Shown: positions 10,805 to 35,785 of the stretch, piece after piece | How the letters are laid out: the number at the start of each line of letters is the position of its first letter | How positions within the stretch are numbered: position 1 is the stretch's first letter | Assembly: GCA_014377485.1 (NCBI GenBank) | Contig: JACMPM010000001.1 | Location: forward strand, 1-47,336 | Direction of reading: 5' to 3' | DNA length: 47,336 nucleotides | From: Bacteriovorax sp. | GTDB lineage: Bacteria; Bdellovibrionota; Bacteriovoracia; Bacteriovoracales; Bacteriovoracaceae | Program-made: the position numbers and the translations under genes | The notes under the pieces: generated by a model | Database searches by the model: none | The model's input: only the letters and a program-made list of their open reading frames with translations | What the model was told of the DNA's origin: nothing

Positions 10805-12772
10805 ATGAAAAATGTTGCCATAACAGTCCTCTTTTTAATGATTTCTACTTCTTGTTCGGGAGTCAAAATGATTACTCCGAATAGAAAATTAGCTGAGAAA
10901 GTAGATACTTCAAAATTATACAAACAACCTTTTCTTCAAAAAATGAATGAAGTGAAAGAAAAATTTCGACAAGGTAGAGCTGACGTCGCCTTGAAAGAAT
11001 TAACTTCGATGAAAGAAGAAGGCTTAAGTACAGCGGAGCGAAGTACCAGGAAAAATCTCATCGGTGTAATTAATTTTTCTAAAAAAAATTACGAGAGTGC
11101 ATCTAAGAATTTTGAAGAAGCACTCGCCCTGTCAAAAGAAGACCCTGGTCTTGAATCCCAAGTTTATTTAAATCTTGGTAGTGCTTATTATAAAATGAAT
11201 CAAAACGAAAAAGCCCTGGCTACATTATCAATGGCCGAATACCATAATCTACAAGACAACGAAGCAAAGAAATACCATCAGCTATACGCTCTACTTTCTC
11301 AACAACTTGGAAAAAAAGAACAAAGTTTAACAGCACTTATTCGTTCCTTAGAAGATAAAAAATCTATTGGCGATTTAAAAAGTGAAGCCCGATATACTCA
11401 AGCCGAAGAATTGTTTTTTAAATTAACTCTTACGGAGAGAAGCCGCTTATTAGAGGATTTTGATTCTGAAAAAAACCTGGCAGTTCCTTACTTAGCTTAT
11501 AAAGAGGCAGAAATTGCTTTTAAAGAAAACAATAAACAAAAAGTTCAAGACTACTCTACTTGGATTGAAAAACGATACGGCGACAACAGTGAAATAATGA
11601 ATTTGATGAAGAATCTTGGTATAAGAAGTGAAAATGACAATGTAAAAATAGATCTTCGATATATCGGTATCGCACTACCATTAAGCGGTGACAGAAAATC
11701 TTTAGGTGAGAGAGCGCTTTCAGGAATAGATGTTGCTTTAGAAGAATTGGCACAGGATCCGACAAAAAAATATCGAGTGGAGATGAAAGACACTCAAGGC
11801 TCGGCAGCAACTGCAGCCTTCGCCGTGAAGGATTTAATCGAAGTGAATAATGTTTCTGCTGTCATCGGTGGCTTAACTCCCAATTCAGCGACTAAAGAGT
11901 ATTTAGAAGCAAAAAAACACGGAGTCCTTTTCATTTCACTTTCTCCGGTATTTTTGCCTAAAGAAGAAAAAAATCATTTACTAATTGAGGTGCCAGCTTC
12001 TATTGAATCACAGGTAAATCATCTTTTTTCACCAAAAATGATCGCAAAATTAGGAAGTCGCCCGGCCATTATTTATCCTAAAAATGAACTTGGTGAAGCT
12101 TATGCCAATGAGTTTTGGAGACGTTCTAAAAAACAAAATCTCGATGTCACCGGATTGATTTCTTATGACCGCAACGCCACTGATTTTAGAGAACCTGTTA
12201 AAAATATTTTGGGAATAAAATTCACTCGTGAGCGCGAGGAAGAATTAGCTATCGTTAATGACATTGCTAATCTTGAAAAAAATAAAAGTATAAAACGAAT
12301 TCAAAATCTTCAACCACAAATTGATTTTGACTGGGTATTTGTTCCGGCACTTCCAAAAGAAGTTGTACAAATTCTGCCAAACTTTAATTACTTCGATGCT
12401 TTCAATTTGAACTATGTCGGAGTGCCAAGTTGGAGATCGGAATTAATGACCAATGAAGGTTATCGGTACGGAAATGTTTTCTTCATGGATGAATCTCTTG
12501 GTACTAATGAAACTGCATTCACACAAAAATTTTCCGCAAAATTTAATAAGCAACCTAAGTTTGTTGAAACCATTTCCTACGATTCTTTGAAAATAGTTTC
12601 GACTATTATTGAAGCAGAACCATCGATGAGTACACGCCAGGATCTCGACTTGGCATTGGCAAAGAAGACGAGCATTCAAGGTGAAAGTGGTCTGTGGAAA
12701 TTAGACGAAGATATCTGGATGAAGGATATGGCGACTTTTAAAATCAAACGCGATGGTGTTGAAGCTTTATAA
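10805..12772 (+). CDS. LpoA-like lipoprotein: TPR region plus periplasmic-binding fold
   Basis: 655 residues. The lipoprotein signal ends at the lipobox STSC (Cys17). Residues about 35-270 form TPR-like helical repeats (for example LNLGSAYYKMNQNEKALATL). From about 287 (YIGIALPLSGDRKSLGERAL) the sequence turns into a type I periplasmic-binding fold, with VIGGLTPNSA and LFISLSPVF segments. This order of TPR domain then binding fold is that of LpoA, the outer-membrane lipoprotein that activates the peptidoglycan synthase PBP1a, and of related amino-acid-type receptors. It would be anchored in the outer membrane, facing the cell wall. The gene stands alone with its own promoter and a hairpin downstream. 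LpoA-type family membership is likely; direct PBP activation is inferred. Confidence 0.75.
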   Translation: MKNVAITVLFLMISTSCSGVKMITPNRKLAEKVDTSKLYKQPFLQKMNEVKEKFRQGRADVALKELTSMKEEGLSTAERSTRKNLIGVINFSKKNYESASKNFEEALALSKEDPGLESQVYLNLGSAYYKMNQNEKALATLSMAEYHNLQDNEAKKYHQLYALLSQQLGKKEQSLTALIRSLEDKKSIGDLKSEARYTQAEELFFKLTLTERSRLLEDFDSEKNLAVPYLAYKEAEIAFKENNKQKVQDYSTWIEKRYGDNSEIMNLMKNLGIRSENDNVKIDLRYIGIALPLSGDRKSLGERALSGIDVALEELAQDPTKKYRVEMKDTQGSAATAAFAVKDLIEVNNVSAVIGGLTPNSATKEYLEAKKHGVLFISLSPVFLPKEEKNHLLIEVPASIESQVNHLFSPKMIAKLGSRPAIIYPKNELGEAYANEFWRRSKKQNLDVTGLISYDRNATDFREPVKNILGIKFTREREEELAIVNDIANLEKNKSIKRIQNLQPQIDFDWVFVPALPKEVVQILPNFNYFDAFNLNYVGVPSWRSELMTNEGYRYGNVFFMDESLGTNETAFTQKFSAKFNKQPKFVETISYDSLKIVSTIIEAEPSMSTRQDLDLALAKKTSIQGESGLWKLDEDIWMKDMATFKIKRDGVEAL

Positions 12773-12782
12773 TTAAGTATTT

Positions 12783-12831
12783 ACTTCCATTGTCTTACTT
12801 TTTTAATCAAGTAATAATAGGCAATGGAAGT
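12783..12831. terminator. Nested hairpin between converging genes, possible two-way terminator
   Basis: Outer arms ACTTCCATTG (12783-12792) and CAATGGAAGT (12822-12831) pair perfectly over 10 bases. Inside them TTACTT (12795-12800) and AAGTAA (12809-12814) form a second stem. It lies between the LpoA-like gene and the small minus-strand ORF ending at 12851. There is no strong T run on either side, so termination is plausible but unproven; it may instead stabilise a 3' end. Confidence 0.5.
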
Positions 12832-12850
12832 TAAATTTATTCGAAAAAGA

Positions 12851-12955
12851 CTATTTTTTTGCAGCAGCAATTTTCTTTTTGATACGAAGTTTTTTCTTTA
12901 ATTGTGCAGTTTTTCTTTTCATTTTTAGTTCAAGTTGTTTTCTACCTTGGCCCAT
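12851..12955 (-). CDS. Tiny lysine-rich basic protein (34 residues)
   Basis: A small ORF fills most of the gap before the AMP nucleosidase gene. It begins ATG at 12955, ends TAG at 12851-12853, and encodes MGQGRKQLELKM followed by a run with KRKTAQLKKKLRIKKK and ending AAAKK. About half of its residues are Lys or Arg. AAAAAGGA stands about ten bases before the ATG, a good ribosome-binding site for so short a frame. The composition suggests binding to nucleic acid or ribosome, like small basic ribosomal or histone-like peptides. I do not recognise the family. The frame could be fortuitous in AT-rich DNA, but the ribosome site, the uninterrupted basic pattern and the flanking hairpin argue for a real gene. 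Confidence 0.55.
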   Translation of the reverse strand: MGQGRKQLELKMKRKTAQLKKKLRIKKKIAAAKK

Positions 12956-13095
12956 GGTCTCTTTATCCTTTTTGGTCAGTTATTATTGAACCCACATAGT
13001 ATTCAAATCATCAGGGGAAATCTAGTATTTAATTGTTGTATCCAACCGACTGAAATGATAAATTTTACTATAAACGATTTAGTTTGTAGAAAGTA

Positions 13096-14064
13096 ATGGA
13101 TCTGACAATGAGTGTTGTAAAAAAAGTCGCGAAGAAAGTTGCGTTAAAAAAAGTCGCGTTAAAAAAAGTAGTGGCAAAAAAGTCTCGTGATAAGACAATT
13201 GCGAGTCATAGTGCGAAAAAACGTATTGAAGTGCTAAAAGAAATCGAAGATCTTAAAGAAAAATTACGTGCACGTAGAATTCACGGCAATGAAGATAAGA
13301 AAAAGATCGCTCGCGATATGCTTGAGCGATACACCGGCCACGACATCAAAGACTTCCAAAAACAAATTATTTTGACAAATTTTCACTATTACGTAGAGCG
13401 CTTTAACGCTCTTCTACCTGATAGCCACTATACGCAAGGCTCAGCGTTTAAAGCATCTTCTTCTGCGAAGGCCCAAGTAACCATCATAGAATTTGGGGTA
13501 GGATCTGCTATGGCCGCTCTAATTGGAGAGTTATTGGCAGTAGTTGAACCCAAGGCAGTATTGTTCTTAGGTTTGGCGGGCGGAGTGCATCCTTCTCTCG
13601 AAGTAGGTGATTTTGTTCTTCCTATCGCATCTATTAGAGGTGAAGGAGTAACCCAACACTTCCTGCCAGAGCAGGTACCGGCTCTTCCAACCTTTAAGGT
13701 ACAAAAATTTGTCTCGCAAATTTTAGTAGAGCATGGGTTAGAGTATAGAACAGGAACAATTCACTCAACGGATTACCGTTTTTGGGAGTTTGATGATCGT
13801 TTTAAGTTAAATTTATTAGAGCAAAGAGTTCTGGCTGTAGAAATGGAAACGGCAGCACTTTTCGTTTCGTGTTTTGTGAGTAAAGTAAATATTGGAGCTC
13901 TACTTCTGATTTCTGATCATCCATTAAAACGTGGTGGCATTAAAACGAAGAAGTCGGCAAAAGCGGTCTTTAGAAAATTTACCGACATTCATATTGAATT
14001 AGGTATTGAAGCTATGGCCGATATTGCGGAAAGAGGGGAAGCGATACGGCACTATCAATGGTAA
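13096..14064 (+). CDS. amn: AMP nucleosidase with lysine-rich N-terminal extension
   Basis: 322 residues. From about residue 75 (RDMLERYTG) onward the sequence follows short-form AMP nucleosidases: ILTNFHYYVERF, IIEFGVGSAMAALIGELL, the nucleoside-phosphorylase core PKAVLFLGLAGGVHPSLEVG, RGEGVTQHFLPEQVPALP, VEMETAALF and the catalytic-loop region LLLISDHPLKRGG. The enzyme hydrolyses AMP to adenine and ribose-5-phosphate in the cytosol. The first 35 residues are unusual: three copies of a Lys-Lys-Val-Ala-Leu-type unit, like histone H1-like tails. Two ATGs are possible (13096 and 13108); the second has GGA seven bases upstream. mreB starts 24 bases after the stop, perhaps in the same transcript. 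Function is firm, tail function unknown. Confidence 0.85.
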   Translation: MDLTMSVVKKVAKKVALKKVALKKVVAKKSRDKTIASHSAKKRIEVLKEIEDLKEKLRARRIHGNEDKKKIARDMLERYTGHDIKDFQKQIILTNFHYYVERFNALLPDSHYTQGSAFKASSSAKAQVTIIEFGVGSAMAALIGELLAVVEPKAVLFLGLAGGVHPSLEVGDFVLPIASIRGEGVTQHFLPEQVPALPTFKVQKFVSQILVEHGLEYRTGTIHSTDYRFWEFDDRFKLNLLEQRVLAVEMETAALFVSCFVSKVNIGALLLISDHPLKRGGIKTKKSAKAVFRKFTDIHIELGIEAMADIAERGEAIRHYQW

Positions 14065-19787: not shown

Positions 19788-21134
19788 GTGAAAAAAGTCT
19801 TTTTAAGCTTGTCTCTTTTTTTATTCATTTTTAATTCAGGAATCCTGAAAGCGATTGAATTTGAAGAATTGTCGGCCGACAATAAATTTGAAATTTATAA
19901 AGAGTCTTGTGATCAAGGTCAGATGGCCAATTGTTATCAAGAAGCAATCTGGTATAAAAAAAATCAAAGATTAGATACTAATGAAGCTAATAAATTTCGC
20001 TCAACGCTTGAAAGTTTAAAGGCTAAGCGGAAAGAATTAAGAAAAGATAATCCCACTGCAGAATTAGAAGAAGACGATTCGACTAATTTAAAAATTGCGG
20101 CGACTTCACTTGGTGAAGAAGAGCAAAAACGAATTGCGCAATCAAGATACATCACTCTTAGAGACTCTGCTTGTAAAGGGGGAGAGACGGCTGCTTGTAA
20201 TGAAAAAGAAGGAAAAAATGATAACACCGGATCGGGTCTTCTTTATTACACCTCACTGTTGTTAATTGGTTTAGCTGTTTTTCTCATTGCTAAAACTATT
20301 TTCCAAGACGAAGACACATTTCAGGCACAAGAAAAACTCGACGAAAATAATAAGCTTGATGAGATCGCAAAACACGGAATTATATTGCGTTACTCCCGTC
20401 CATTTTTTAAACGTTACTTCAGTCCAATTGTTTCGGGAATGAAGAATAAAAAAGGACTTAAAGAAAAATATCGAAGAACTTTAGCGGCTGCCGGTTTAAC
20501 CAGCATTTTAACTCCCGAAGATTTTTTTGCTTTCAAGTTATTTTTAATTTTAGGATTTCCCATTATTTTTATTATTATGAAAACTTTTCTAGAAGCGGAT
20601 TGGAGTTTAATGCTTATTCCTGTTTTAGCTTTAGTTGGATTCTTTTATCCGGATCTTTGGATAAGTGGAAAAATTCAACAACGACAAAAAGATGTAATCA
20701 TGAGCATGCCTTTTTGTGTAGATATGTTGGCGTTGTCGGTTGAAGCAGGGTTGGATTTTGTCGCTGCTATGGCAAAAGTTATAGAAAAAGCAAAAGTGAA
20801 TGCCTTGACGGAAGAGTTTGATACTGTAATTCGAGAAATTAAAATAGGTTCAAGCAGAGCCGATGCTCTTAGAAATTTTGCATGGAGAGTTGATCTAATT
20901 CAAATTTCTTCATTTTGTGCAACTCTAATAGCGGCGGATTCTGTAGGGGCATCGATTGGTCCTATCTTAAAATCGCTGGCCGTAGAAATTCGCCAAAAAA
21001 AATCTGCTGAAGTAGAAAAAGCAGGGGCTACTGCCGCAACCAAGATTTTATTTCCGATGATGTTTCTTATTATTCCTTCTGTTTTGTTGATTGTCTTTGC
21101 ACCAATTGTCCTGGAGATGATTGGTGCAAAATAA
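19788..21134 (+). CDS. TadC-like type II secretion F-domain protein with exported cysteine-rich N-terminus
   Basis: 448 residues from a GTG start. Residues 1-22 look like a signal peptide. Residues 25-145 would lie outside the cytoplasm and contain two matching elements, SCDQGQMANC and ACKGGETAAC, each Cys-X7-Cys as in Sel1-like repeats. A membrane helix follows at about 150-172. The rest (about 240-448) is a T2SSF domain of the TadC kind, with helices at about 247-295 and 420-445 and PFCVDMLALSVEAGLDFVAAM in the conserved cytosolic helical part. TadB/TadC form the inner-membrane platform of Tad/Flp pili. No tadA, tadB or pilin lies here; instead FHA genes follow. The exported domain is absent from ordinary TadC proteins, which are about 300 residues. 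Confidence 0.8.
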   Translation: MKKVFLSLSLFLFIFNSGILKAIEFEELSADNKFEIYKESCDQGQMANCYQEAIWYKKNQRLDTNEANKFRSTLESLKAKRKELRKDNPTAELEEDDSTNLKIAATSLGEEEQKRIAQSRYITLRDSACKGGETAACNEKEGKNDNTGSGLLYYTSLLLIGLAVFLIAKTIFQDEDTFQAQEKLDENNKLDEIAKHGIILRYSRPFFKRYFSPIVSGMKNKKGLKEKYRRTLAAAGLTSILTPEDFFAFKLFLILGFPIIFIIMKTFLEADWSLMLIPVLALVGFFYPDLWISGKIQQRQKDVIMSMPFCVDMLALSVEAGLDFVAAMAKVIEKAKVNALTEEFDTVIREIKIGSSRADALRNFAWRVDLIQISSFCATLIAADSVGASIGPILKSLAVEIRQKKSAEVEKAGATAATKILFPMMFLIIPSVLLIVFAPIVLEMIGAK

Positions 21135-21492
21135 AATTTATATTTTGAAAGACCAAGCCGCGAATATCATTTGCAAAAAAATGATTGTCGTCAATCAGTC
21201 TTTTGACCGCATGAAGGGGTTGATGTTTTCATCTGAAATGCCAGATTGCGACGGTTTTTTAATTACTGGTGCTTTGCCATGTAATTCAATTCACACATTT
21301 TTTATGCTTTATAGCCTGGACATCTTATTTCTCGATAAGAACTTTACGGTTGTAAAAGCTATATATGACCTTTCGCCATGGAGAATAACCTGGATGTATT
21401 TCAAAGCTCATCAGGTATTAGAAATGCAGGCCGGAACCATGAAGAAAGATATAAAAGTTGGAGATAAGTTAGAGGCGATATGTATAAATTAG
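21124..21492 (+). CDS. DUF192 family protein
   Basis: 122 residues when started at GTG 21124, which has GGAG seven bases upstream; a TTG one codon earlier is too close to it. The pattern RMKGLMFSSEMPDCDGFLI, then IHTFFMLYSLDILFLD, and FKAHQVLEMQAGT is the DUF192 signature. Family members are small beta-rich proteins, often exported, of unsettled function; this one lacks a signal peptide. It overlaps the TadC-like gene by 11 bases and the first FHA gene by 13, so it belongs to the same translational unit. DUF192 genes are often seen near pilus and secretion loci. Confidence 0.8.
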   Translation: MQNKIYILKDQAANIICKKMIVVNQSFDRMKGLMFSSEMPDCDGFLITGALPCNSIHTFFMLYSLDILFLDKNFTVVKAIYDLSPWRITWMYFKAHQVLEMQAGTMKKDIKVGDKLEAICIN

Positions 21493-23045
21493 TTGTTGTC
21501 GGTGGTAAATCAAGAGGTCAAGAGTTCGTGTTAAAAACAGGGGATAATACTCTTGGGCGCGATAGTTCCTGTGATATCCATTTTCAAGTCGAAGGAGTTT
21601 CAAAAAAGCATCTTACCATGACTGTAACAGATGATGTTGTCTACCTTCAGGATATGGGCAGTGCCAATGGAACATTTCTCAATGGAAAAATAATTAAACG
21701 GGCAACAGTTAAGGGTGGAGATAAAATTGGTCTTCCCAATGCCATTTTGCAGTTGGTTCATGTTCAAGAGAAAAAAGTTGTTATTAAAAAGAAAGTTGGA
21801 AACCTTAGAGAGCGTGAAGAATCAATCGATGATATTTTAAGCGGTGGAGCACTTCCAGAGAGTTTAGTCGGAAAAGTTTTTTGGCTTTTTAAATATAAAT
21901 TTATGCCTGCACTTCACGGGATTAATCAAGAATACGAATGGAAAGTTCTGTTAGCTATTTTCACAGCAGCCTTTGCTCTTATTACTATTACCTTAACTAT
22001 TTTTCCAGTCCTTCAAGATTCAAAGGAAGTTCTGGTTACGGAAATTGCCAATAGGGGAGCACATTACGCTGAAGAAATCGGGCGAATGAACGCAGCAGCT
22101 CTGGAACAAAAAAATCTAGAAAGAATTGACACGACTTTTCTCGACAGTGAAGAGGGCGTAGTTTCGTACGAATTGTTTGACCTGGATGGACGAATTGTTA
22201 GACCGATTTCTCGTTTAAATGAATACACCAACGATCCATTTTCTGTTCAGACGAGAGAGTGGTTTTCGGTCAATAAAAATAGCAAAGTTAAAAAACAGCT
22301 CTTAGAAAATAGTCAAATTGGAATTGGAAAGATTATTTTAGCCTATAACACTCGAACGGGAACACCAGAGCCTGTTGGGATTATTGCTATTCGATTTGCT
22401 CCCCGAACCTTAGCTGTTGAAGCAACGAAGAGTTCCAAGCTGTATTTCGAATCCCTCATCACCTCCTTTTTAGTGGCGATTCTTTATTTCGGAGTTGTTT
22501 ATTACTTAACACTGAAACCTATTGAAGAAATTCGTTACCAAACGGAAGAAGCTCTAAGAGGTAAAAGAAGAAACATTGAAAGTAAGCTCTTGTTTGAAGA
22601 ACTTAATCCTGTCAGGAATGCGATCAATACTGGTCTTCAGCGAATACGTGAATTGCAGCGAGATGAATCTGCAATAGATCCAAATGACATCGAAAGTGAT
22701 GATGCTTACGTCACTACACTCGTGGAATTTATGATAGGTGCTCAAGGTCCGGTGATTGTTCTTAACTCTAATAAAAATTTAATAAAGCTTAACAACCAAG
22801 CTGAAGATATCTGTGGAATTCGTTTATCAATGGCTGAGGGAATGAACATTCTGGATATTACCAAGGAAAGAGGATTTGCAGCGACTCTAATCGAATTGTG
22901 CGACAATTCGGCTAATAATTCAGGCACATCACAACAGGGACATTATGAACTGCAAGGAAAGCAATACGGTATTTTTGTAACTTCTTTAATGGGTAAAGAT
23001 GGATTTGCGAAAGGTTTTTATATAACTTTCGTTCAGGACGCATAA
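21480..23045 (+). CDS. Membrane FHA-domain sensor protein with periplasmic loop and PAS-like end
   Basis: 521 residues. An N-terminal FHA domain (2-97) has the phosphothreonine-binding residues: LGRD (25-28), S41 and H44 of VSKKH, and NGTFLNG at 63-69. A membrane helix follows at 154-176, then an exported domain of about 145 residues (180-323) and a second helix at 324-345. After a short HAMP-like linker, a cytosolic region with NSNKNLIKLNNQAEDICGI resembles a PAS domain (about 430-520). So it looks like a receptor that has FHA and PAS parts inside and a sensor outside, without a kinase. GAGG precedes the ATG. It is joined by overlap to the DUF192 gene and lies five bases from the next FHA gene. 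Confidence 0.82.
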   Translation: MYKLVVVGGKSRGQEFVLKTGDNTLGRDSSCDIHFQVEGVSKKHLTMTVTDDVVYLQDMGSANGTFLNGKIIKRATVKGGDKIGLPNAILQLVHVQEKKVVIKKKVGNLREREESIDDILSGGALPESLVGKVFWLFKYKFMPALHGINQEYEWKVLLAIFTAAFALITITLTIFPVLQDSKEVLVTEIANRGAHYAEEIGRMNAAALEQKNLERIDTTFLDSEEGVVSYELFDLDGRIVRPISRLNEYTNDPFSVQTREWFSVNKNSKVKKQLLENSQIGIGKIILAYNTRTGTPEPVGIIAIRFAPRTLAVEATKSSKLYFESLITSFLVAILYFGVVYYLTLKPIEEIRYQTEEALRGKRRNIESKLLFEELNPVRNAINTGLQRIRELQRDESAIDPNDIESDDAYVTTLVEFMIGAQGPVIVLNSNKNLIKLNNQAEDICGIRLSMAEGMNILDITKERGFAATLIELCDNSANNSGTSQQGHYELQGKQYGIFVTSLMGKDGFAKGFYITFVQDA

Positions 23046-23050
23046 ATTAA

Positions 23051-24109
23051 ATGAGTAAAGGTGAAAACGTAAAAATTACCAACGAACTAAAGAATCCGTC
23101 GTCGCCGGGAACTCACTATCGTTTTCTTTGCATGACTGGTCCGAACAAGGGAAGAGTTTATTACTTAATTGGGAAAAGAGTAATCATTGGGCGTGGGGAA
23201 AATGCAGACATTCAAATTGTAGATGTAAAAATCTCAAGAGAGCATGCCGAGCTATCTTTTTCAGACAATGGCTACACTATTACAGATCTTGGCGCTGAAA
23301 ACGGTATTATTGTTAATGACACTAAAATTAAGCAGAAAAAATTAGCTGAAGGTGAAAAAGTTGTCATCGGCCAAACCGTCTTTAAATATAATATTATCGA
23401 AGTTACCAATACAGATCTGGCAGTCCTCGACGAAGACAATGGAGTTGCTTTATTAAAAGATTCAAAATCCAGTAAAGCGAAAGTTCAGCTTAAAGCAAAT
23501 ATTGGCAGTGGAGACTCGTTCTCTAATAAAAAAACAAATATTACTGAGAAAAAAAGTAACTCCAAAGTACTGGTGATGGCCGGTGTGGTGGGAATTGTGT
23601 TGTACGTTTTAATGGGAAGTAATGAACCTGCAAAACAAACCAAAACACGCAATGTGAACGCCGTGTCTGATTTTGATGCTCCAGACACTACTCCTAAAAA
23701 AGCCAGTCAGGATGATGCAGAAATTAAAAAGAAATTAGAAAATTATATACATAGTGGCCGTCGTGAATTTGGCGAAGGAAATTATTTTCGTGCGATGGAA
23801 GACTTTAGGTTAGCCTTGTTATTGAGTCCCAATAATGGGCATGCCAGTTTTTATCTTGCGAAAGCAAAACAAAGACTTGATGAAGATATCGAGAAGAACT
23901 TTTTAAAAGGTAAGCAGGAATACGAATCAAAAAAACTCCAGGCATCTATTGTTTCTTATTGTGGAGTTGTACAATTAATACAAAATTACCCAAATGATGA
24001 GCGCTATAAAAATGCAATGCTGAAAATAAGCGCCATTGAATCAGAATTGGGTTTGGAGAAAGGTGAAGTTAAGTGTTTTGAAGAGAAACCAGCCGATTCA
24101 AAAAATTGA
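23051..24109 (+). CDS. Membrane FHA-domain protein with TPR tail
   Basis: 352 residues. An FHA domain at about 24-118 keeps IGRG (46-49), S62 and H65 of SREH, and a degenerate ENGIIVND turn (83-90). One membrane helix (172-189, VLVMAGVVGIVLYVLMG) separates it from a C-terminal TPR-like region (about 215-335, for example YFRAMEDFRLALLLSPNNGHASFYL) that should lie in the periplasm. It would read threonine phosphorylation inside the cell and hold partners outside it. It shares this plan with the next gene, whose start lies within its last 47 bases. No clear Shine-Dalgarno sequence precedes its ATG, so it may depend on the upstream gene for translation. Confidence 0.82.
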   Translation: MSKGENVKITNELKNPSSPGTHYRFLCMTGPNKGRVYYLIGKRVIIGRGENADIQIVDVKISREHAELSFSDNGYTITDLGAENGIIVNDTKIKQKKLAEGEKVVIGQTVFKYNIIEVTNTDLAVLDEDNGVALLKDSKSSKAKVQLKANIGSGDSFSNKKTNITEKKSNSKVLVMAGVVGIVLYVLMGSNEPAKQTKTRNVNAVSDFDAPDTTPKKASQDDAEIKKKLENYIHSGRREFGEGNYFRAMEDFRLALLLSPNNGHASFYLAKAKQRLDEDIEKNFLKGKQEYESKKLQASIVSYCGVVQLIQNYPNDERYKNAMLKISAIESELGLEKGEVKCFEEKPADSKN

Positions 24110-26381
24110 TTTAGGCAAAGACGTTCTCGCATTTGATTATTCAGAAACAGTATTTTTGATCGGAAGATCAAAAGACTGTCATGTTGTTCTTGATGACAAA
24201 CAAGTCTCGAGAGAACACGTGCGCATCATTCACAAAAATGGTAAATGGTTAGCTGAAAAAACAGCTGAACATAATGCCTGTCTTCATAATGGTGAAGAAT
24301 TTAATCGTGCCGAATTGGACGATGGAGATTCATTAACGATTGGAAGTTTTACAATCAATATCGAAAACTCCTCTGAAAATACAGTTGAATTTTCTGCGGC
24401 TACAACTCCGGTTCCAGTGATTAATCCTATTGTTGAAGCACAGAGTGCTGTAACTACAAATATTGCAACTGCAACTGTCGTTACATCTAGCGCTGTTCCC
24501 GCGACCAGACAGGATTCAGATGCGACGAGAGAAATTGATCCGACAGAATTAACTAATGAAATTCCAAATCCATTATTAGCTTCTTCCGGTGAAGCCACTT
24601 CTGATATTGAGCTTCCGTCAGATTTTGAATCTTCGGATCAGTCTTCGAAAAATGAAAACGATGAATTTAACTATGAAGAAAATACTGAACATGAAGCAGA
24701 AGTTGCACTTGGATTAAATTCAGACTCTCAAGCCGAAGAACAAAATTCTATGATGGAAAGCGATGAAAACTTGTCGTATTCCCTTGAAAATATCGACAGC
24801 GGAAATGATGATGAAAGCACTAAAGTTATTCAATCTTTTTCCAAAGTCCAGTTAGAGCTTTTTGGTGAGACTGCTCCTTACGATAAATATCTTATTGAAA
24901 GTGAAAAGACCTATATTGGTCGAGATGCTTCCAAATGTCAGATTGTCTTAAACGATTCAGAAGTTTCATCTATTCATGCTGTTATTACAAAAAATAATAT
25001 AATGATCACTCTTGAAGATTTGAATTCTTCCAATGGAACTATTTTAAATGGTGACCGAATTAATAAGGCTACTCTTAATCATAATGATGAATTCGTTATT
25101 GGCGGAGTTACTTTTACCGTAAAAGTCCGTTCAGATTTCTTGAAAGAAGAAAGTTCAACTTTAATGGCGGTTGATGAAAATCAAACAGTCGAAGTTGAAG
25201 AAGTTGTCGAAGTTCAGGCAGAAGAAGGTGAAAATCTCGATGCTTTGGGTGGAATGATCAGCGATGGGCCTCTAGAGAAATCTATTCTTAAAAGAATCTG
25301 GAAAGATGAAGAGAAGAGAAAAAAACTTATTTATGGAGCTGTAATTTTAGTTGGTGCATGGGTTATGTTTGGAGATGATAGTTCTACCAAGCCACCAGTA
25401 ACAACAACAAATAAACCTAAAAAAGCAATCGTCAAAACTGAAACTTCAATTAATAAGTTTACTGGAAAAAAATTAAATGAAGATGAGAGGCGAGCTTTAT
25501 CTGCCCGATATGAAATTGGAAAAAATCATTATTATAACGGTCGTTACCGTGAAGCTCTAGATGAGTTCCAAAAAATTTCAGCGACTGATCCCAATTTTAA
25601 CTCTTCACTGCAGTCTCTCATGGCTCTTTCAAAAGAAGGATTGAGCAAACTTGAAGAACAAGAAAAGAAAAGAATTGCTGAGCAGACTGCAGCAGAGAAA
25701 AAAATTAAAGTCAAAGAACTGGTGGAAAGAGCTACTGGCTTTGTTAAAGACCGAAGAGTCGAATTGGCTCAAGATGTATTTAATGAAATTGCCAAAATAG
25801 ACCCAGAAAATATTGATGTTACCAAAATGAAGCTGGAGCTTGAAGATTGGCAAAAAGAAAAAGCTAAAAAAGAATTGGAAGAAGCATCTAAAAAGAAAGC
25901 TAGAGAAGATAAAGTTGAAAAACTAAAACCCGGAAAAGCATTATTCATTCAAAAAGAATGGTTTAAAACTATTGGTAAATTGGATGATTTTTTAAAAATA
26001 AAAGATATGGACGAAGACTTGACCAAAGAGGCTTCAGAAATGTTGAAAACATCACGGGATGAAATCAGTGCTGCCGTAGCCCCTCTTATCGGAAAAGCAA
26101 AATCGTTGATGGAAGGGCAAGATTTAAAAGGTGCCTACGAAGTCTACCAACAAATTTTAAAGATAGAGCCTTCAAATGCAGAATCCCTAAATTCAACGGG
26201 AGAAATTAAAGAGCAGCTTTCAAATAAAGCTCGCAAAATTTATCGAGAAGCCATTATTTCTGAGTCGTTAAGTTTATTTCAAGACGCCAAAGAGAAATTC
26301 CAGGAAGTTCAGCAAGTCTCTCCAGTTGATAGCGATTATTACAAAAAAGCCTCTGATAAACTTAAAGATTATTTGGAATAA
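24063..26381 (+). CDS. Large membrane protein with two FHA domains and TPR tail
   Basis: Started at GTG 24063 (GGAG four bases upstream), which gives 772 residues; a TTG at 24036 is less likely. A first FHA domain at about 2-100 has IGRS and SREH but a poor NG turn. A long acidic linker rich in Ser, Thr, Glu and Asp (about 105-265) offers many phosphorylation sites. A second, canonical FHA domain (about 270-365) has IGRD, SSIH and NGTILNG. A membrane helix at about 417-434 leads to a periplasmic TPR/coiled-coil region to the end. It probably arose from the same ancestor as the previous gene. It overlaps that gene by 47 bases and ends three bases before the phosphatase. Confidence 0.83.
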   Translation: MKLSVLKRNQPIQKIDLGKDVLAFDYSETVFLIGRSKDCHVVLDDKQVSREHVRIIHKNGKWLAEKTAEHNACLHNGEEFNRAELDDGDSLTIGSFTINIENSSENTVEFSAATTPVPVINPIVEAQSAVTTNIATATVVTSSAVPATRQDSDATREIDPTELTNEIPNPLLASSGEATSDIELPSDFESSDQSSKNENDEFNYEENTEHEAEVALGLNSDSQAEEQNSMMESDENLSYSLENIDSGNDDESTKVIQSFSKVQLELFGETAPYDKYLIESEKTYIGRDASKCQIVLNDSEVSSIHAVITKNNIMITLEDLNSSNGTILNGDRINKATLNHNDEFVIGGVTFTVKVRSDFLKEESSTLMAVDENQTVEVEEVVEVQAEEGENLDALGGMISDGPLEKSILKRIWKDEEKRKKLIYGAVILVGAWVMFGDDSSTKPPVTTTNKPKKAIVKTETSINKFTGKKLNEDERRALSARYEIGKNHYYNGRYREALDEFQKISATDPNFNSSLQSLMALSKEGLSKLEEQEKKRIAEQTAAEKKIKVKELVERATGFVKDRRVELAQDVFNEIAKIDPENIDVTKMKLELEDWQKEKAKKELEEASKKKAREDKVEKLKPGKALFIQKEWFKTIGKLDDFLKIKDMDEDLTKEASEMLKTSRDEISAAVAPLIGKAKSLMEGQDLKGAYEVYQQILKIEPSNAESLNSTGEIKEQLSNKARKIYREAIISESLSLFQDAKEKFQEVQQVSPVDSDYYKKASDKLKDYLE

Positions 26382-26384
26382 AAT

Positions 26385-27125
26385 ATGATTGAACTTAAAA
26401 GTTATGGAATGAATTCTCATCAGGGCCCTCATCTCAATTTGAATGAGGATTATGTGGAAGTTGATTTGGTGAATAATCTTTTTATGGTTATTGACGGCTT
26501 CGGCGGATCCAATATTGGGGACAAGGCAGCTTTGATGATTCGAGATACTCTTAAGCGTTCTTATACTAAAATTGCCAACGACCCAGATTCTACTTTGCCT
26601 TTTTTTTTCAGCCATAAATATTTAATTGAAGGTAACGCTCTCATAAATGCCCTTCATGTTGCACACCAAAATATATCCAGAGAAAACGAAAGCAAGTCTA
26701 TAAACAGTCGCGGTGGAGGATCAGTTCTTTCTGCAGCAATGGCCGAAAATATTCTGACCTTAGTTTCAACTGGAAATTGTGGAGCTTATCTTTACCGCAA
26801 AGGACATTTGACCTGCGAAATCTTGCCAGATTCTCTAAGAAGCCTGAGCAGAGATCGTTTTACTTCTTATCTACATACTGTCCCGATGAGCGGAGTTGGG
26901 TTGTTTGAGGACCTCCATTATCAAGTCAAAGAATTAAAAATTTCTGGCGGGGATATAGTCATTCTCTTAACCGATGGGGTCTATGCCAGGCTAGAAGAGA
27001 GTGAAATAAAATATACAGTTGAAAAGAATCTAGAGAGTGAATTGGAAATTATAAAAGAACTTTTTAAACTCGCCAACGACCGGGGTAATCTGGATAATCA
27101 GACCGCTTTAATACTTCAGTTTTAA
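26385..27125 (+). CDS. PP2C-family serine/threonine phosphatase
   Basis: 246 residues, cytosolic. Metal-binding motifs of PP2C enzymes are present: NEDYVEVD with Glu21/Asp22, VIDGFGGSNIGDKAA (Asp37, Gly38), LLTDGVYARL and NLDNQTALI with the last conserved Asp. These hold the two Mn/Mg ions that hydrolyse phosphothreonine or phosphoserine. Its position three bases after the double-FHA gene makes the FHA proteins or their ligands the obvious substrates. The matching kinase is not in the window. The last gene of the tight cluster; the response regulator follows after an 88-base gap. Confidence 0.85.
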   Translation: MIELKSYGMNSHQGPHLNLNEDYVEVDLVNNLFMVIDGFGGSNIGDKAALMIRDTLKRSYTKIANDPDSTLPFFFSHKYLIEGNALINALHVAHQNISRENESKSINSRGGGSVLSAAMAENILTLVSTGNCGAYLYRKGHLTCEILPDSLRSLSRDRFTSYLHTVPMSGVGLFEDLHYQVKELKISGGDIVILLTDGVYARLEESEIKYTVEKNLESELEIIKELFKLANDRGNLDNQTALILQF

Positions 27126-27213
27126 TAATCGAGTAATTTAGTATGGCTTCTCTGTAAAAATAGCATTGATTAAGACCTACTTTTAGTTGAGAATAGTTCC
27201 AAGAGGATTGCAA

Positions 27214-28368
27214 ATGACTTCAAGAGTTTTAGTAGCTGACGATAGTTTAACCATTCAGAAAGTAATTGGTATAACACTAGCAAATAGTGGATATGAACTT
27301 ATCGAATGTTTAAATGAAGCTGAACTGTTCAGAAAAATTCAGTCAAATCAATTTGATCTGATTCTACTAGATTTCAATCTCTCAGATTCACATTCAGGTT
27401 ATGAACTCTCAAAGCAAATACATCACGCAATGCCTGAAGCCGCAATTATTGTGATGCTCGGAACCTTTGATACAGTTGATGAATTACAATTTGAAGCTTG
27501 TGGCATCTCTGATAAAATCGTTAAGCCTTTCGAGAGTACTAAGTTTATTAAAAAATGCCGTGATTTGCTTGAGGGGGCCCGTCCTTCAATTGCTCTTAAA
27601 AAAGAAAATACAGAAGAAGAATCTCAAGAAAATTCAACTGAAGATAAATATAGCAAATCCGATGACCTCGATCTTTGGCAAGTGGATGCTCCTCAAATGC
27701 TGTCTAGCGAATCTCATTCTGAAGAAGAGGAAGAGTTCCTGAAAGATCATTCTATGGACAGCGCTCTCGATCCCTTGAGTAGTGAAATTGAAGGATGGGG
27801 ATTTACTCCCAGCAATTCTTTGGAAGAAAAATTTCAAAAAGTTTTTCCTCCAGTTATTGAAGAAGCTTCTGATGTGAGTATAATTGACAGACTTCAATCA
27901 TCTTCACAATTTGTTAATGATGATTTTAATAAAGATGACGAAGACCTGGATGCAACTGATCCGTCATTTGAAGTACCTGAAGATTTAAACCGCAATCTCT
28001 TAAACGAAATTGAAGATGAAATTTCAGCCGAAGCTTTTTGGGCAGTCGATGAAGTGGTTCCTGTAAAATCTGAAGAAGAAGATGATATAGGTGATACTAA
28101 TCTTGATGAAGTGACTGCTGATTTAACAGAAACTTTACAAACTTTTAAAGAAAAAGAGTCTTCCAATAGTATCCAAATAGACAAGAGTATCAATCAAGAC
28201 GAACTTGTAGAAAAACTCAAAGTTGCTTTGAGACCGATGATTGAAGAAATGGTAAAAGAATTTTGCCGTCAAAGCGCTGAGAAAGTAGCTTGGGAAGTGA
28301 TTCCTGATTTAGCAGAAAATCTTATTCGCAAAGAAATTAAAGAAATTTCAGATTCAGTTCAACACTAG
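27214..28368 (+). CDS. Response regulator with long acidic linker and PopZ-like C-terminal helices
   Basis: 384 residues from ATG 27214, which has AGAGG seven bases upstream; a TTG at 27187 is rejected. The receiver domain (1-125) has Asp9/Asp10, the phosphoacceptor Asp53 in ILLDFNLSD, Thr84 and Lys104 of IVKPF. Residues about 130-315 are acidic and probably disordered. The last 70 residues contain RPMIEEMVKEFCRQ and VAWEVIPDLAENLIRKEI, an arrangement resembling the C-terminal helices of PopZ/DUF2497 proteins and of response regulators in delta-proteobacteria. There is no DNA-binding domain, so it likely acts by protein contact, perhaps at a cell pole. No histidine kinase lies nearby. The PopZ comparison is tentative. 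Confidence 0.78.
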   Translation: MTSRVLVADDSLTIQKVIGITLANSGYELIECLNEAELFRKIQSNQFDLILLDFNLSDSHSGYELSKQIHHAMPEAAIIVMLGTFDTVDELQFEACGISDKIVKPFESTKFIKKCRDLLEGARPSIALKKENTEEESQENSTEDKYSKSDDLDLWQVDAPQMLSSESHSEEEEEFLKDHSMDSALDPLSSEIEGWGFTPSNSLEEKFQKVFPPVIEEASDVSIIDRLQSSSQFVNDDFNKDDEDLDATDPSFEVPEDLNRNLLNEIEDEISAEAFWAVDEVVPVKSEEEDDIGDTNLDEVTADLTETLQTFKEKESSNSIQIDKSINQDELVEKLKVALRPMIEEMVKEFCRQSAEKVAWEVIPDLAENLIRKEIKEISDSVQH

Positions 28369-30878: not shown

Positions 30879-33800
30879 GTGAAGTTAAAAAGACTTATTC
30901 TCCATGGTTTTAAATCTTTTAAAGATCGCACGATAATTCATTTCGATGAAGGAATCACTGGGATCGTAGGCCCGAACGGTTGTGGTAAATCCAACGTCGT
31001 TGATGCCCTTTTTTGGGTAATGGGCGAGCAGTCAGCAAAGCACTTACGTGGTGCAAACATGAAAGATTTAATCTTTGCTGGTTCTTCAAAATACACTCCA
31101 GCGGCATTCGCTGAAGTTTCTTTAGTGCTTGAAAACGATGAGGGAAAACATATCCACATTGGTCATCAAGTTAGTTCTCCAACCGAAATTCAATTAACAA
31201 GAAAACTTTATCGCAATGGTGAAACTGAATACCGAATTAACGATGTACCTTGTCGTCTTCGCGATATCCAGGAAGTTTTCATGGATACCGGTGCCGGTGC
31301 AAAATCTTATTCTATTATTGCCCAAGGTGAGATCAACCGTTTAGTGCAAGCTAAACCAGAAGAGCGCCGAGTAATGATCGAAGAAGTTGCCGGGATCACA
31401 AAATTTAAAGTGAGAAAAAGAGAGTCGCTTAAAAAAATTGAGCAGACGGAGCAAAACCTTGCACGCTTGAATGATCTTCAGCAAGAAATCGAGAAAAATT
31501 TAAAAGCACTTGAGAAGCAAGCCGAGAAAGCTGAACGGGCGCGTGATTTAAAAGAAAAAGTTCAAAGATACGATCTTGTCGTCCATGCTCATAAAGAATT
31601 TGATCTTCTTAAAACTTTCAAAGACGGAAAGAGCATTGTCGATGCTAGATCAGAAGAAAATGAAAACTTTTTTAGTCGCAAAAATGTTATTGAAATTGGT
31701 CTTGAAGAAGAGCGCTTTCGTAAAGATGACGAAACTTCACGAATTGATGAACTTCAAAAAGAATTCAATATTATTTCAAAAGAGCTAGCAGCAAGTGAAG
31801 AGCGTTTAGTTTACTTATGTAAAACTCAATCAGAAAAAGAAAAATTGATTGAAACTCGCGAAGCTGAAATCGTATCAGTTAATCTTGAACTAACTGGGCG
31901 CTTAGAAAAGTTAGAAGGATTACAAACGGAACTAGATACTTGGGAGCGCAAAGGTGAAGAAGACAACGACTTTGCTTTATTAGAAGAAAGAGTTGAACAC
32001 CTAAAAGAAGAATTGGATTTTAAAACTCAAAGCTTCAATGACCTCAAAGAAGAAATTGAAAAAGAGAAAGAAGCTTTCAATAAGATCGATCTAGATCTTT
32101 TCAGAAACACTTCACGCTTGGAAGAATATGCAGCTCAGTTACAAGATTTAACAAAAGAAATTGAAGCGCTAGAAGCTCAATATTCTGGAGTTAATACTCA
32201 GATCGTAAGTGAGAGAGACGCAGTTACTTCTGCTGAAAAAGTGTCTACTGAATTAAAAGAAAAAGAAATGATTTTACGTGGTCACATCGAAGAAGCGACT
32301 ATTAAAGTTAGAGAGCAAGAACAAAGTTTTGCCATAAAATCAAAAACACTTATTCAGTCGGATTCTAAACTTCAGTCATTGATTGAAGTGAATAAGTCGC
32401 TTGAAGGAAAAAAAGAAGGGATCTCAGCGTTCTTGAAAGAAAACGCAGAGGGATTTTCTCTTTTAGGAAATCTTGTAAAGTGTGATGAAAAATACACAAA
32501 AGCAGTTCAGTTTTTGTTGGCTGAATTTTTAGAAACATTAGTAGCGACAGCGGATGCAGATAGCGATTTGTTTTCTTGGATTGAAAAAAACGAAAAGAAT
32601 CTTGATTATCTGAAAATGGTAAACACGGAAAAACTTTCTAGCGAGACAGTGGCACGCATGAAAATGTCTCTTGGTGATGATCTCGTATCATTAACTGATA
32701 TTCTTGAAATGAATTCAGAACTTAAAAACAAAATGGCTTCTTTCTTAGATGGTTATTTTGTAGCATCAGAATTAAATGGTGACGTGATGACTTCATTATC
32801 TGCTGAAATCCGTTTTAAAGCGGTTGCAAGCTTAAACGGGACTCGTAAAATAACTAACCTCAATGGCGCCAAGCTTATTTCTATTCAGGCATCAACTGAT
32901 GAAGCTCAAGGATTTGTTGCCCGTAATAATTTAATTGAAGAATTAAAAGCAACAACAACTTTGCTTACAGCTGAAGTGCAAATTCTTGAAACTAACTCAA
33001 CAGCTGAACGTGCTTCGCTAGAAGCCAAAAAAGCAGAGTTTGATGTGTTACGTGATCAAGTTGCAGAGGCACGCGCAACATTCTCTGCCAAGAAATCTGC
33101 ATTAGACGCAAAACTTTCTAACTTTGAATCTGGATTTACACGTCTGGAAATCTTAAAAAATAGAAAGCAAGAAATTTCAAAATCTCGCCTGGACATGATT
33201 GAGTCAGAAGAAACATTATCTCGTAAAAAAGAAGAATTGACTTCTACCCTGTCTGATAAGTCTTCTCGTTTTGATGAGATTCAAGAAGAAGTTGAAATCC
33301 AAAAATCGTCATTCGAAGACGAAAGAGCTGAACTTTTACAAAAACAAGTTGAAGCTCGCTCATTTGAATCAACACTTAAGAGTTTAAACTCTCAAATTGA
33401 AGATTTAAACGGCCAGATTGAGCGTCTAAATCAACGTCTTGAATCTAATATTGCTTTGGTGGCCAACTACAATACTGAAATAGATCAGATCATAATTGAG
33501 CTGGAAGAACTTGAAGCTTCTAACAAAGAAACGTCTATTGTTTTAAGTGATAAAGAAGATGTCTTGAACCTACTCAAAGACAGCCTTGGACAACTTCTAC
33601 TTTCAATGAAAGATCGTGAAGACGAAGTTAAAACGATTACTGCTTCGATTAATAAAAATCAAAGAGAAATCGTTGAACTTGAAGTTAAGCTATCTCAATA
33701 TGTTATTGAAGAAGAGCAGAACGTTCGCAATATTTTTGAAAAATATCAAATTGATCTTCGTAATACTCTTGGAGGATTTTTATCTTACAGCGAATCTGAT

Positions 33801-34553
33801 TACCAGGAACTTAAAGATGTTAATTCAATGTTCTGGATGGAGTCTGAAGTTGGTTTAAAAGAAATTGATAAGAAAGATTTTGAATTCGTTCGTCGTTATG
33901 GCCAAGACCTAAAAGAATGTAACGATAAACTAAAAAATTATAAGCTTGAATTTGGTCGCCTTGGCGATATTAACTGGCAAGCGATTGAAGATTACGATCG
34001 TCAAAAATTACGTGCTGACTTCCTTCGCGTTCAAGAAATTGAACTCAAATCTTCACTTGAAGATCTTCAAAAAGCGATTGCTCATATCGACGAAAAATCT
34101 AAAGCTCGCTTTCAGGCAGCTTACGATGAAGTAAATATGCGCTTCCAGAAAGTGTTTCCAATTATTTTTGGCGGTGGAAGTGCCGATCTTAAAATTGTTG
34201 GGGATATTAACGATGCTGAATGCGGAATTGATATTGTTGCTCAACCACCTGGAAAGAAAATGCAAAATATAAACTTGATGTCAGGTGGTGAAAAAGCCAT
34301 GACTGCCGTAAGTTTAATTTTCTCAATCTTCCTAGTTAAGCCTTCGCCTTTTTGTTTATTAGATGAGGTAGATGCACCCCTTGATGATGCCAACGTTGGA
34401 CGCTTTAATGAGCTTTTAAGAGAGATGAGTTCAGATTCTCAGTTTATTCTTATCACTCATAATAAAAAGACCATGGAGCTCAACGACACTCTGTACGGCG
34501 TTACTATGCAAGAGCCGGGTGTTTCTAAAGCAGTATCAGTTCAATTACACTAA
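30879..34553 (+). CDS. smc: SMC chromosome partition protein
   Basis: 1224 residues from a GTG start with AAAGGA about seven bases upstream. The ATPase head halves lie at the ends: Walker A GPNGCGKSN near 31-39, and C-terminal signature LMSGGEKAMTAVSL followed by Walker B FCLLDEVDAPLDDA. Between are two long coiled coils (about 170-495 and 680-1030) split by a hinge at about 500-670 (ISAFLKENAEGFSLLG onwards). SMC dimers with ScpA/ScpB compact and separate chromosomes; neither partner is in this window. The gene seems monocistronic, with a strong terminator after it. Confidence 0.97.
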   Translation: MKLKRLILHGFKSFKDRTIIHFDEGITGIVGPNGCGKSNVVDALFWVMGEQSAKHLRGANMKDLIFAGSSKYTPAAFAEVSLVLENDEGKHIHIGHQVSSPTEIQLTRKLYRNGETEYRINDVPCRLRDIQEVFMDTGAGAKSYSIIAQGEINRLVQAKPEERRVMIEEVAGITKFKVRKRESLKKIEQTEQNLARLNDLQQEIEKNLKALEKQAEKAERARDLKEKVQRYDLVVHAHKEFDLLKTFKDGKSIVDARSEENENFFSRKNVIEIGLEEERFRKDDETSRIDELQKEFNIISKELAASEERLVYLCKTQSEKEKLIETREAEIVSVNLELTGRLEKLEGLQTELDTWERKGEEDNDFALLEERVEHLKEELDFKTQSFNDLKEEIEKEKEAFNKIDLDLFRNTSRLEEYAAQLQDLTKEIEALEAQYSGVNTQIVSERDAVTSAEKVSTELKEKEMILRGHIEEATIKVREQEQSFAIKSKTLIQSDSKLQSLIEVNKSLEGKKEGISAFLKENAEGFSLLGNLVKCDEKYTKAVQFLLAEFLETLVATADADSDLFSWIEKNEKNLDYLKMVNTEKLSSETVARMKMSLGDDLVSLTDILEMNSELKNKMASFLDGYFVASELNGDVMTSLSAEIRFKAVASLNGTRKITNLNGAKLISIQASTDEAQGFVARNNLIEELKATTTLLTAEVQILETNSTAERASLEAKKAEFDVLRDQVAEARATFSAKKSALDAKLSNFESGFTRLEILKNRKQEISKSRLDMIESEETLSRKKEELTSTLSDKSSRFDEIQEEVEIQKSSFEDERAELLQKQVEARSFESTLKSLNSQIEDLNGQIERLNQRLESNIALVANYNTEIDQIIIELEELEASNKETSIVLSDKEDVLNLLKDSLGQLLLSMKDREDEVKTITASINKNQREIVELEVKLSQYVIEEEQNVRNIFEKYQIDLRNTLGGFLSYSESDYQELKDVNSMFWMESEVGLKEIDKKDFEFVRRYGQDLKECNDKLKNYKLEFGRLGDINWQAIEDYDRQKLRADFLRVQEIELKSSLEDLQKAIAHIDEKSKARFQAAYDEVNMRFQKVFPIIFGGGSADLKIVGDINDAECGIDIVAQPPGKKMQNINLMSGGEKAMTAVSLIFSIFLVKPSPFCLLDEVDAPLDDANVGRFNELLREMSSDSQFILITHNKKTMELNDTLYGVTMQEPGVSKAVSVQLH

Positions 34554-34612: not shown

Positions 34613-35077
34613 ATGAAAAAAATATTACTCTTAGTTATGCTTTTAACTTCTTGGTCAATAAGTGCTCAAACCACTTTTTCTGCAACCCTCATTAAAAATG
34701 GAACCTATCTATTAATTCATTTGTCTGATGATCATCTTATTCCTCCGTTTGAAGCTGGAGAGTTGTGGAAAATCTTGAAGGGAAATGAGCAGCTGAAAAT
34801 GATTAATGAAAAAGAATTGAAAATTAATTGCAATGCTTTCACTAATCAAACAGAAGATATTATCGGAGAATGTACAATCTTGATGCCGTATAACTTATTT
34901 CAAAAAATCGATAATGAAATGGTTTTTAAAGCAACAGGTAATACTGCCACCAGGCTAAATCGTTATTTCATCGACAGTGCTTATCTTTCAATTCAAAGAA
35001 ATCAAGTTTACCTTTCCTCTTACAATACCAGAAGATTGTTTTTCCTTGGTATTACTGAAAATCTTATACAAAAGTAA
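34613..35077 (+). CDS. Small exported protein of unknown function
   Basis: 154 residues. MKKILLLVMLLTSWSISAQ is a clear signal peptide, so the mature protein of about 135 residues is periplasmic or secreted. It is mixed alpha/beta, with two cysteines about 30 residues apart (NCNAF and GECTI) that may form a disulfide. GAGGAG sits well before the ATG. The next gene, a membrane VOC-type protein, starts three bases after its stop, so the two are co-transcribed. No family recognised. Confidence 0.7.
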   Translation: MKKILLLVMLLTSWSISAQTTFSATLIKNGTYLLIHLSDDHLIPPFEAGELWKILKGNEQLKMINEKELKINCNAFTNQTEDIIGECTILMPYNLFQKIDNEMVFKATGNTATRLNRYFIDSAYLSIQRNQVYLSSYNTRRLFFLGITENLIQK

Positions 35078-35080
35078 TCT

Positions 35081-35785
35081 ATGAAAAGTCATTTATGGTT
35101 TAGAAGAAAAACTTATGGTTGGGGCTGGACTCCAATCACTTGGCAAGGCTGGGCAGTTACTGCTTTGTGCCTGGTCATTCCTTTAAGTATAAAATTAATT
35201 ACAAAGTCTTTGGAATTATCCAAGAATGAACAAAACTTTTTTGTATTTGCGACACTTCCATTAGTTGTCGTTGCTCTGGTTTTTGTTTGTCTTCGTTATG
35301 GAGAGAAACCAAGATGGCAATGGGGAATTAAGACAACAAAACTTTCTCATATCGAACTTTCTGTTTCAAATTATCGTGAAAGCATTATTTTTTATGATCT
35401 CATTCTACTTTCATTAGGGTGGGAACGTTTAGTTACTCGAACTGAACATACCACTTATTCGGATGGAACTTTAAAAATTGTTTTATGTCCGGTGGAAGAA
35501 GAATATTTGAAAGATGGGTATCACCGAAAACGCATAGGCCTTAACCACCTGGCTTTTTATACCAAGACAAAAGAACTTGTTGATCAGTTTCACAAAGAAA
35601 TTCTATTGGCCAACAATATCCCCGTACTTTATGAAAAGTGTCCAAGTGGAGATAGTAATTATTATTCAGTTTATTTTGAAGATCCAGATCGTATAAAATT
35701 GGAAGTTGTCTTTGCTCCTCATTACTGTGAGAAAGCCTATTGGCCTAATACAGTCGAAAATACTTACGATCCTTATCAGCCTTAA
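35081..35785 (+). CDS. Membrane protein fused to a VOC/glyoxalase-type domain
   Basis: 234 residues in two parts. Residues 1-85 hold a Trp/Gly-rich start (RKTYGWGWTPITWQGW) and two membrane helices (about 22-42 and 50-70), like small inner-membrane proteins of unknown role. From about 88 a vicinal-oxygen-chelate domain begins: KLSHIELSVSNYRESIIFYD, LNHLAFYTKTKELVDQF and YFEDPDRIKLEVVFAP. His in the first and third strand segments and Glu in the last match three of the metal-ligand positions of glyoxalase/dioxygenase enzymes. Such enzymes are normally soluble; tethering to the membrane is unusual. The reaction is unknown. It follows an exported protein gene by three bases. Confidence 0.78.
   Translation: MKSHLWFRRKTYGWGWTPITWQGWAVTALCLVIPLSIKLITKSLELSKNEQNFFVFATLPLVVVALVFVCLRYGEKPRWQWGIKTTKLSHIELSVSNYRESIIFYDLILLSLGWERLVTRTEHTTYSDGTLKIVLCPVEEEYLKDGYHRKRIGLNHLAFYTKTKELVDQFHKEILLANNIPVLYEKCPSGDSNYYSVYFEDPDRIKLEVVFAPHYCEKAYWPNTVENTYDPYQP

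Follow-up and report, generated by a model that had tools for sequence, protein, structure and literature searches.

The window, which is the whole of contig C58 (47,336 nt) in a Bacteriovorax genome of 3.95 Mb and 147 contigs, harbors seven tightly spaced open reading frames at 19788-28368, all on the plus strand. These and one short motif are listed below.

19788..21134, + strand: TadC platform protein of the inner membrane (Pfam T2SSF 1e-16 in the C-terminal part of 448 aa)
21121..21492, + strand: DUF192 protein (Pfam DUF192 7e-16)
21480..23045, + strand: FHA_PAS, with FHA domain (2e-15), transmembrane segment, periplasmic sensor, second transmembrane segment, coiled coil and PAS-like part; orthologue of Bd0472
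23051..24109, + strand: FHA_TPR1, with FHA domain (7e-16), transmembrane segment (residues 173-191) and weak TPR-like part; orthologue of Bd0473
24036..26381, + strand: FHA2_TPR, with two FHA domains (1.5e-30) joined by an acidic linker, transmembrane segment and periplasmic TPR; orthologue of Bd0474; exact position of the start codon uncertain
24813..24830, + strand: ESTKVI motif of FHA2_TPR, a candidate phosphothreonine ligand; codon ACT of Thr262 at 24819-24821
26385..27125, + strand: PP2C-type Ser/Thr phosphatase (motifs NED, DGFGG, TDG and DN); orthologue of Bd0475
27187..28368, + strand: response regulator (Pfam Response_reg 5e-15)

Successive reading frames are spaced by -14, -13, +5, -74 and +3 nt, and the response regulator follows after 61 nt. 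The first-pass annotation had listed these genes in this order and at this place, with four FHA domains in three proteins, and all of this was confirmed, the domains by Pfam. TadC possesses an additional N-terminal part with a signal-like helix, which occurs mainly in close relatives, and alignments with homologues from outside the genus mostly cover residues ~150-445. The nearest named loci belong to Bacteriovorax and Bacteriovoracaceae genomes, and identity at TadC reaches 92%. Within the family the locus is flanked by a GH3 protein upstream and by biotin ligase and RNase PH downstream; this conservation makes a contaminant or an assembly artefact unlikely. A promoter scan yielded counts equal to those of shuffled sequences. 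Further downstream in the window, an SMC-family gene (30879-34553) is followed by two consecutive open reading frames (34613-35785) for which Pfam gives no match at 1e-5.

FHA_PAS crosses the membrane at residues 156-174 and ~322-348. The best match of its AlphaFold2 model (mean pLDDT 73.9) over the full length is the WalK sensor kinase, while the FHA part matches GarA, OdhI and DgcB. In the response regulator, a receiver domain, in which Asp and Lys are conserved, is followed by a variable acidic middle part and a strongly conserved C-terminal VAWEVIPDLAENLI motif, which is covered by no Pfam family. The WalK-like sensor layout and the presence of such a receiver next to the operon would be compatible with control exerted mainly by phosphotransfer between FHA_PAS and the response regulator and with FHA domains that do no more than recruit partners. 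This is improbable, as no histidine-kinase domain was detected by Pfam in the locus and the response regulator is confined to Bacteriovoracaceae loci, adjoining none outside this family, whereas the remainder of the locus occurs phylum-wide.

The genes for tadA, tadB and pilin were reported absent by the first-pass annotation. This is true for the window but not for the genome, as all of them are encoded on contig C23. The operon on C23 comprises a Flp-like pilin, a prepilin peptidase (CpaA), TadE-like proteins, RcpC/CpaB, a secretin (CpaC), a TadZ-CpaF fusion, TadB and a Rhs/YD-repeat protein; TadC is absent from it. The pilin (62 aa, ESGQTSTEYILLV, L013 9435-9623) was recognised by eye, and the TadZ-CpaF fusion (749 aa) contains no FHA domain according to Pfam. 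T2SSF matches in the whole genome number four: two in a single GspF-type protein, one in TadB on C23 and one in the TadC of the window, the latter two being the only TadB and the only TadC of the genome. One genome therefore holds a full Tad (type IVb) set of CpaF ATPase, secretin, RcpC/CpaB, TadB, TadC, prepilin peptidase and Flp-type pilin. Compared with the canonical Tad pilus of Caulobacter and Aggregatibacter, homologues of Flp, CpaA, CpaB, CpaC, CpaF, TadB and TadC are shared. However, TadZ is fused to CpaF, TadC is split off together with the FHA and PP2C genes, and the Rhs/YD-repeat protein follows TadB. The latter protein (L013 20-1648) is 33% identical to its counterpart in Bdellovibrio bacteriovorus HD100 (L097 4195-5847), which is located beside TadB and is probably Bd0109; almost every Tad operon of the phylum has a Rhs/YD-repeat protein after TadB. 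Contig C11 (L004 1237-2373) encodes another CpaF-like ATPase, a short one with no platform genes nearby. For HD100, the extra cpaF-type genes bd0793 and bd3307 have been reported (PMC3818213).

The six core genes from TadC to PP2C co-occur across genomes and are collinear and on one strand in all 33 complete loci, TadC always being followed by the DUF192 gene and this by the first FHA gene. Such an arrangement is not due to chance. Their relation to the Tad operon differs among families. Joined clusters of 12-22 kb were found in families f4, f8, f12 and f15 in the order TadC-DUF192-FHA-FHA-FHA2-PP2C, pilin-like, CpaB-CpaC-TadZ/CpaF-TadB, Rhs/YD-repeat, so that the PP2C gene forms the junction of the two halves. 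In f9 and f13 both halves are present on one contig within ~19 kb, some parts being matched more weakly. Within Bacteriovoracaceae, TadC and TadB are ~350-480 kb apart in four long contigs (G002, G009, G020 and G030), and also in G015 if this contig is circular. Split loci fall into two distinct clades of the TadC tree, namely Bacteriovoracaceae and the Bdellovibrio group, which are separated by joined clusters. Well-supported branches force at least two changes between split and joined states in this tree, which has no outgroup and contains some long branches. The simplest reading is that the joined state is ancestral and was split twice. The apparent absence of Tad genes from the window thus results from a split of the gene cluster, which probably happened twice in the phylum.

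The first-pass annotation had proposed a machine independent of the Tad pilus. The lack of tadA, tadB and pilin in 47 kb and the distance of 350-480 kb between the halves in the long contigs of Bacteriovoracaceae would fit such a free-standing machine. Against it stand the occurrence of one TadC and one TadB in the genome, the joined clusters in families f4, f8, f9, f12, f13 and f15, and the published phenotype of a Bdellovibrio tadC mutant. Genome-wide T2SSF counts and joined clusters in relatives rule out this reading, to which we assign next to no probability. Adjacency to a complete Tad operon, as seen in these relatives, had been named by the first-pass annotation itself as grounds for refutation. 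The window locus and the C23 operon are instead regarded as the halves of one Tad machine, whose identity as Tad is close to certain. What stands of the envelope machine that had been proposed is its arrangement, with FHA domains inside and TPR or sensor parts outside; its separation from Tad does not stand, and neither does the statement that no such system has been described.

The gene set is already described and linked to predation in Bdellovibrio, where it forms the operon Bd0470-Bd0475 (PMC12034629, PMC6561027). One of the genomes analyzed is taken by us to be HD100. The published bd0111 primer was matched in three genomes, including the one assigned to HD100 (PMC3818213). The six core genes correspond one to one and in the same order to Bd0470-Bd0475 of HD100 (locus L098). 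The fourth product of HD100 comprises 387 aa from the first start codon and the sixth 228 aa, compared with printed lengths of 386 aa for Bd0473 and 228 aa for Bd0475 (PMC12034629). Its fifth product agrees with the published description of Bd0474 (PMC12034629) in having a TPR part and, at the N-terminus, two FHA domains. FHA_PAS and FHA2_TPR are each 24% identical to the HD100 proteins. Here too, the partner Tad operon, the hit locus bd0108-0121, is located elsewhere in the genome (~97-106 kb, as compared with 439.8-446.7 kb for the tadC-FHA half) and ends with TadB and the Rhs/YD-repeat protein. HD100 differs in that no response regulator adjoins the locus and Bd0475 lacks the PP2C metal ligands. 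Transposon insertion in Bd0470 abolishes attachment to prey, while a Bd0474 insertion mutant attaches without killing or rounding its prey (PMC6561027). In a two-hybrid assay Bd0474 bound Bd0075, a TPR protein, and interactions among Bd0473-Bd0475 have been predicted (PMC12034629). That the Bacteriovorax analyzed here is itself predatory is inferred from its family.

The Kil system of Myxococcus xanthus is an FHA-rich, Tad-like apparatus encoded in two gene clusters that kills prey on contact, and Bdellovibrio homologues have been listed (PMC8460266). As in Kil, several FHA proteins are encoded with a Tad-like apparatus, namely three in the present locus, which are clustered with Tad genes in other families. 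However, KilF has an N-terminal FHA domain, whereas the ATPase found here is a ParA/TadZ fusion without FHA; the comparison with Kil is based on its description. Membership in Kil proper was rejected because of the lack of an FHA-fused ATPase. Assignment to a type VI or type III secretion system was also rejected, as the matches to YscD, TagH and GltG are all below the NCBIfam cut-offs.

The FHA domains were analyzed for their potential to bind phosphothreonine. In the window, three of the four FHA domains have the GR, S-x-x-H and NG residues, namely those of FHA_PAS and FHA_TPR1 and the second one of FHA2_TPR. Of these, the FHA_PAS domain and the FHA2_TPR domain keep the phosphothreonine-contacting Arg, Ser and Asn nearly phylum-wide, with single exceptions. 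FHA_TPR1 retains all three residues in Bacteriovoracaceae, with frequent loss of the Asn in the Bdellovibrio group, and the first FHA domain of FHA2_TPR lacks the NG Asn of the phosphothreonine loop in the window and in most loci. The linker between the two FHA domains of FHA2_TPR is long, acidic and poorly conserved (mean majority fraction 0.30). Of the 151 columns in this stretch (115-265), only Thr262 is invariant (22 of 22 family members), and no other linker column reaches 20 of 22. Thr262 is positioned 33 residues before the Gly of the GR in the second FHA domain. In 13 of 16 proteins from other families, among them Bd0474 with EKTMI, the pattern [DE]x(0-2)TxV/I/F is located 32-36 residues before this point. 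Shuffled stretches contained it in a mean of 2.7 and a maximum of 7 proteins (2000 trials), a comparison that describes the strength of the pattern and is not an independent trial, as the motif was picked with both the family alignment and the upstream stretches of the remaining families in view. The other proteins of the locus show only scattered matches to the FHA-ligand motif.

Threonine tails preceding an FHA domain occur in GarA and OdhI. In DgcB of Bdellovibrio, the pThr14 peptide is bound by the protein's own FHA domain and gates prey invasion (PMC6733907). Thr262 resembles the threonines of all three proteins in being located in an acidic stretch before an FHA domain and in being followed by hydrophobic residues; the FHA domain here, however, is part of a membrane scaffold protein and not of a soluble enzyme or inhibitor. 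This suggests how the machine might be switched on, namely via a conserved threonine of phosphorylation type, and judged from sequence a phosphothreonine switch is likely. Phosphorylation of Thr262 and its reading by an FHA domain are rated as the control step with somewhat better than even confidence.

The main alternative is that the FHA proteins form structural scaffold rings without phosphorylation, comparable to SctD/YscD of type III secretion or GltG of gliding motility, and that the PP2C is a leftover. These proteins share the architecture of a cytoplasmic FHA domain, a transmembrane segment and periplasmic repeats. The YscD cytoplasmic-domain model is matched by all three FHA proteins of the locus, and a GltG match from NCBIfam, at 1.8e-20, is far below its cut-off. 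The decay of the PP2C in several families also fits this explanation. A purely structural role does not account for the phosphothreonine-contacting Arg, Ser and Asn kept phylum-wide in two of the four FHA domains, the invariant threonine motif preceding one of these conserved domains, or the full PP2C metal site in Bacteriovoracaceae. It is thus considered rather unlikely, though clearly ahead of the other alternatives.

Pfam matches of the PP2C are near threshold, but the assignment is made firm by its fold. Its AlphaFold2 model (mean pLDDT 88.7) finds its best PDB matches in tPphA and PppA (E 3e-19 to 2e-18), in addition to an NCBIfam Stp1/PP2C match at 1.6e-20 and a phmmer match to PppA (6jkv, 5e-7). 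D22, D37, G38, D197 and D237 are invariant in 15 sequences, and the GDSR-type Asp is an Asn in most sequences. The metal residues are complete in Bacteriovoracaceae and f13 and partly lost in f4, f8, f12 and f15. They are absent in the Bdellovibrio group, including Bd0475, where homology is indicated by weak profile scores of 24-40 bits together with fixed position and shared motifs. The hypothetical protein Bd0475 thus appears to be a decayed phosphatase, and in Bdellovibrio and its kin the descendant of the PP2C is a dead protein, one that probably only binds. Since much of the phylum carries a dead PP2C, dephosphorylation by this protein is not a general part of the system. In the PpkA-PppA-Fha module of type VI secretion, an envelope machine is likewise controlled by kinase, PP2C and FHA, and the present PP2C matches PppA in both sequence and fold. 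The machine is a different one, however, and no kinase is encoded in the present locus.

The kinase had been expected outside the locus, and the sole Hanks-type Ser/Thr kinase of the genome is indeed encoded on contig C145 (L024 4112-6133). A DgcB-like FHA-GGDEF gene (12307-13215) is located ~6 kb from it. The N-terminal tail of the DgcB-like protein, DDATIVLTD, fits the Thr262-type motif. An orthologue of the kinase with 44% identity is encoded near 3.06 Mb in HD100, a position compatible with Bd3148, which has been discussed as a candidate DgcB kinase (PMC6733907). At least one Hanks-type kinase is present in all 49 genomes tested, so its co-occurrence with the locus is uninformative and not specific. 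The C145 enzyme is probably the Thr262 kinase, a claim that is made with less confidence than the phosphothreonine step itself.

Gene identities, synteny, the uniqueness of TadC, the FHA ligand residues, the threonine motif and the state of the PP2C active site point to the locus as the platform-and-control half of a predation-associated, Kil-like Tad machine with a switch composed of Thr262, kinase, FHA and PP2C, and we hold this to be reasonably probable. TadC would join TadB and the TadZ-CpaF motor encoded elsewhere. The FHA-TM-TPR proteins would form a scaffold across the inner membrane, and FHA_PAS may report an envelope or prey-contact signal. For the switch we infer phosphorylation, kinase identity, ligand pairing and motor control: a Hanks-type kinase, probably that of C145, would phosphorylate the double-FHA protein at Thr262 of its linker. 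Phosphorylated Thr262 would then be bound by the second FHA domain of the same protein or by a partner FHA, which would change scaffold assembly and license the Tad motor, and the PP2C would reset the switch in Bacteriovoracaceae. The control of an envelope machine by threonine phosphorylation that the first-pass annotation had envisaged is thus probably correct in outline.

More tentatively, and with slightly less than even confidence, the switch may extend to the whole phylum. Prey contact would lead to phosphorylation of Thr262 in the Bd0474 family by the Hanks-type kinase that also serves DgcB, and the adjacent FHA domain would read it, with the PP2C as an active eraser in Bacteriovoracaceae and a dead binder in Bdellovibrio. 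The proposal bears on the route from prey contact to attack in predatory bacteria, in which the FHA proteins of the Tad-like machines of Bdellovibrio and Myxococcus are a suspected link. With a single conserved threonine beside a conserved FHA domain, this link can be tested directly in a predator that is amenable to genetics. New here are the collinearity of 33 loci, the conservation of FHA residues, the Thr262 motif and the contrast between intact and erased PP2C. In the literature searched, we came across neither the conserved threonine nor the decay series of the phosphatase nor the joined cluster, and a search for a Bdellovibrio phosphoproteome returned nothing relevant.

Two further genomes were observed among the relatives. 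G061 (f14, L108), which is rated 100% complete, harbors a CpaB-CpaC-TadZ/CpaF-TadB-Rhs operon and no clear TadC, either because the entire TadC-FHA half was lost or because the assembly has a gap. In a record placed in Myxococcota, Deltaproteobacteria bacterium M0603, the locus (L070) is of the Bacteriovoracaceae version and groups inside that family; this genome is probably mislabelled.
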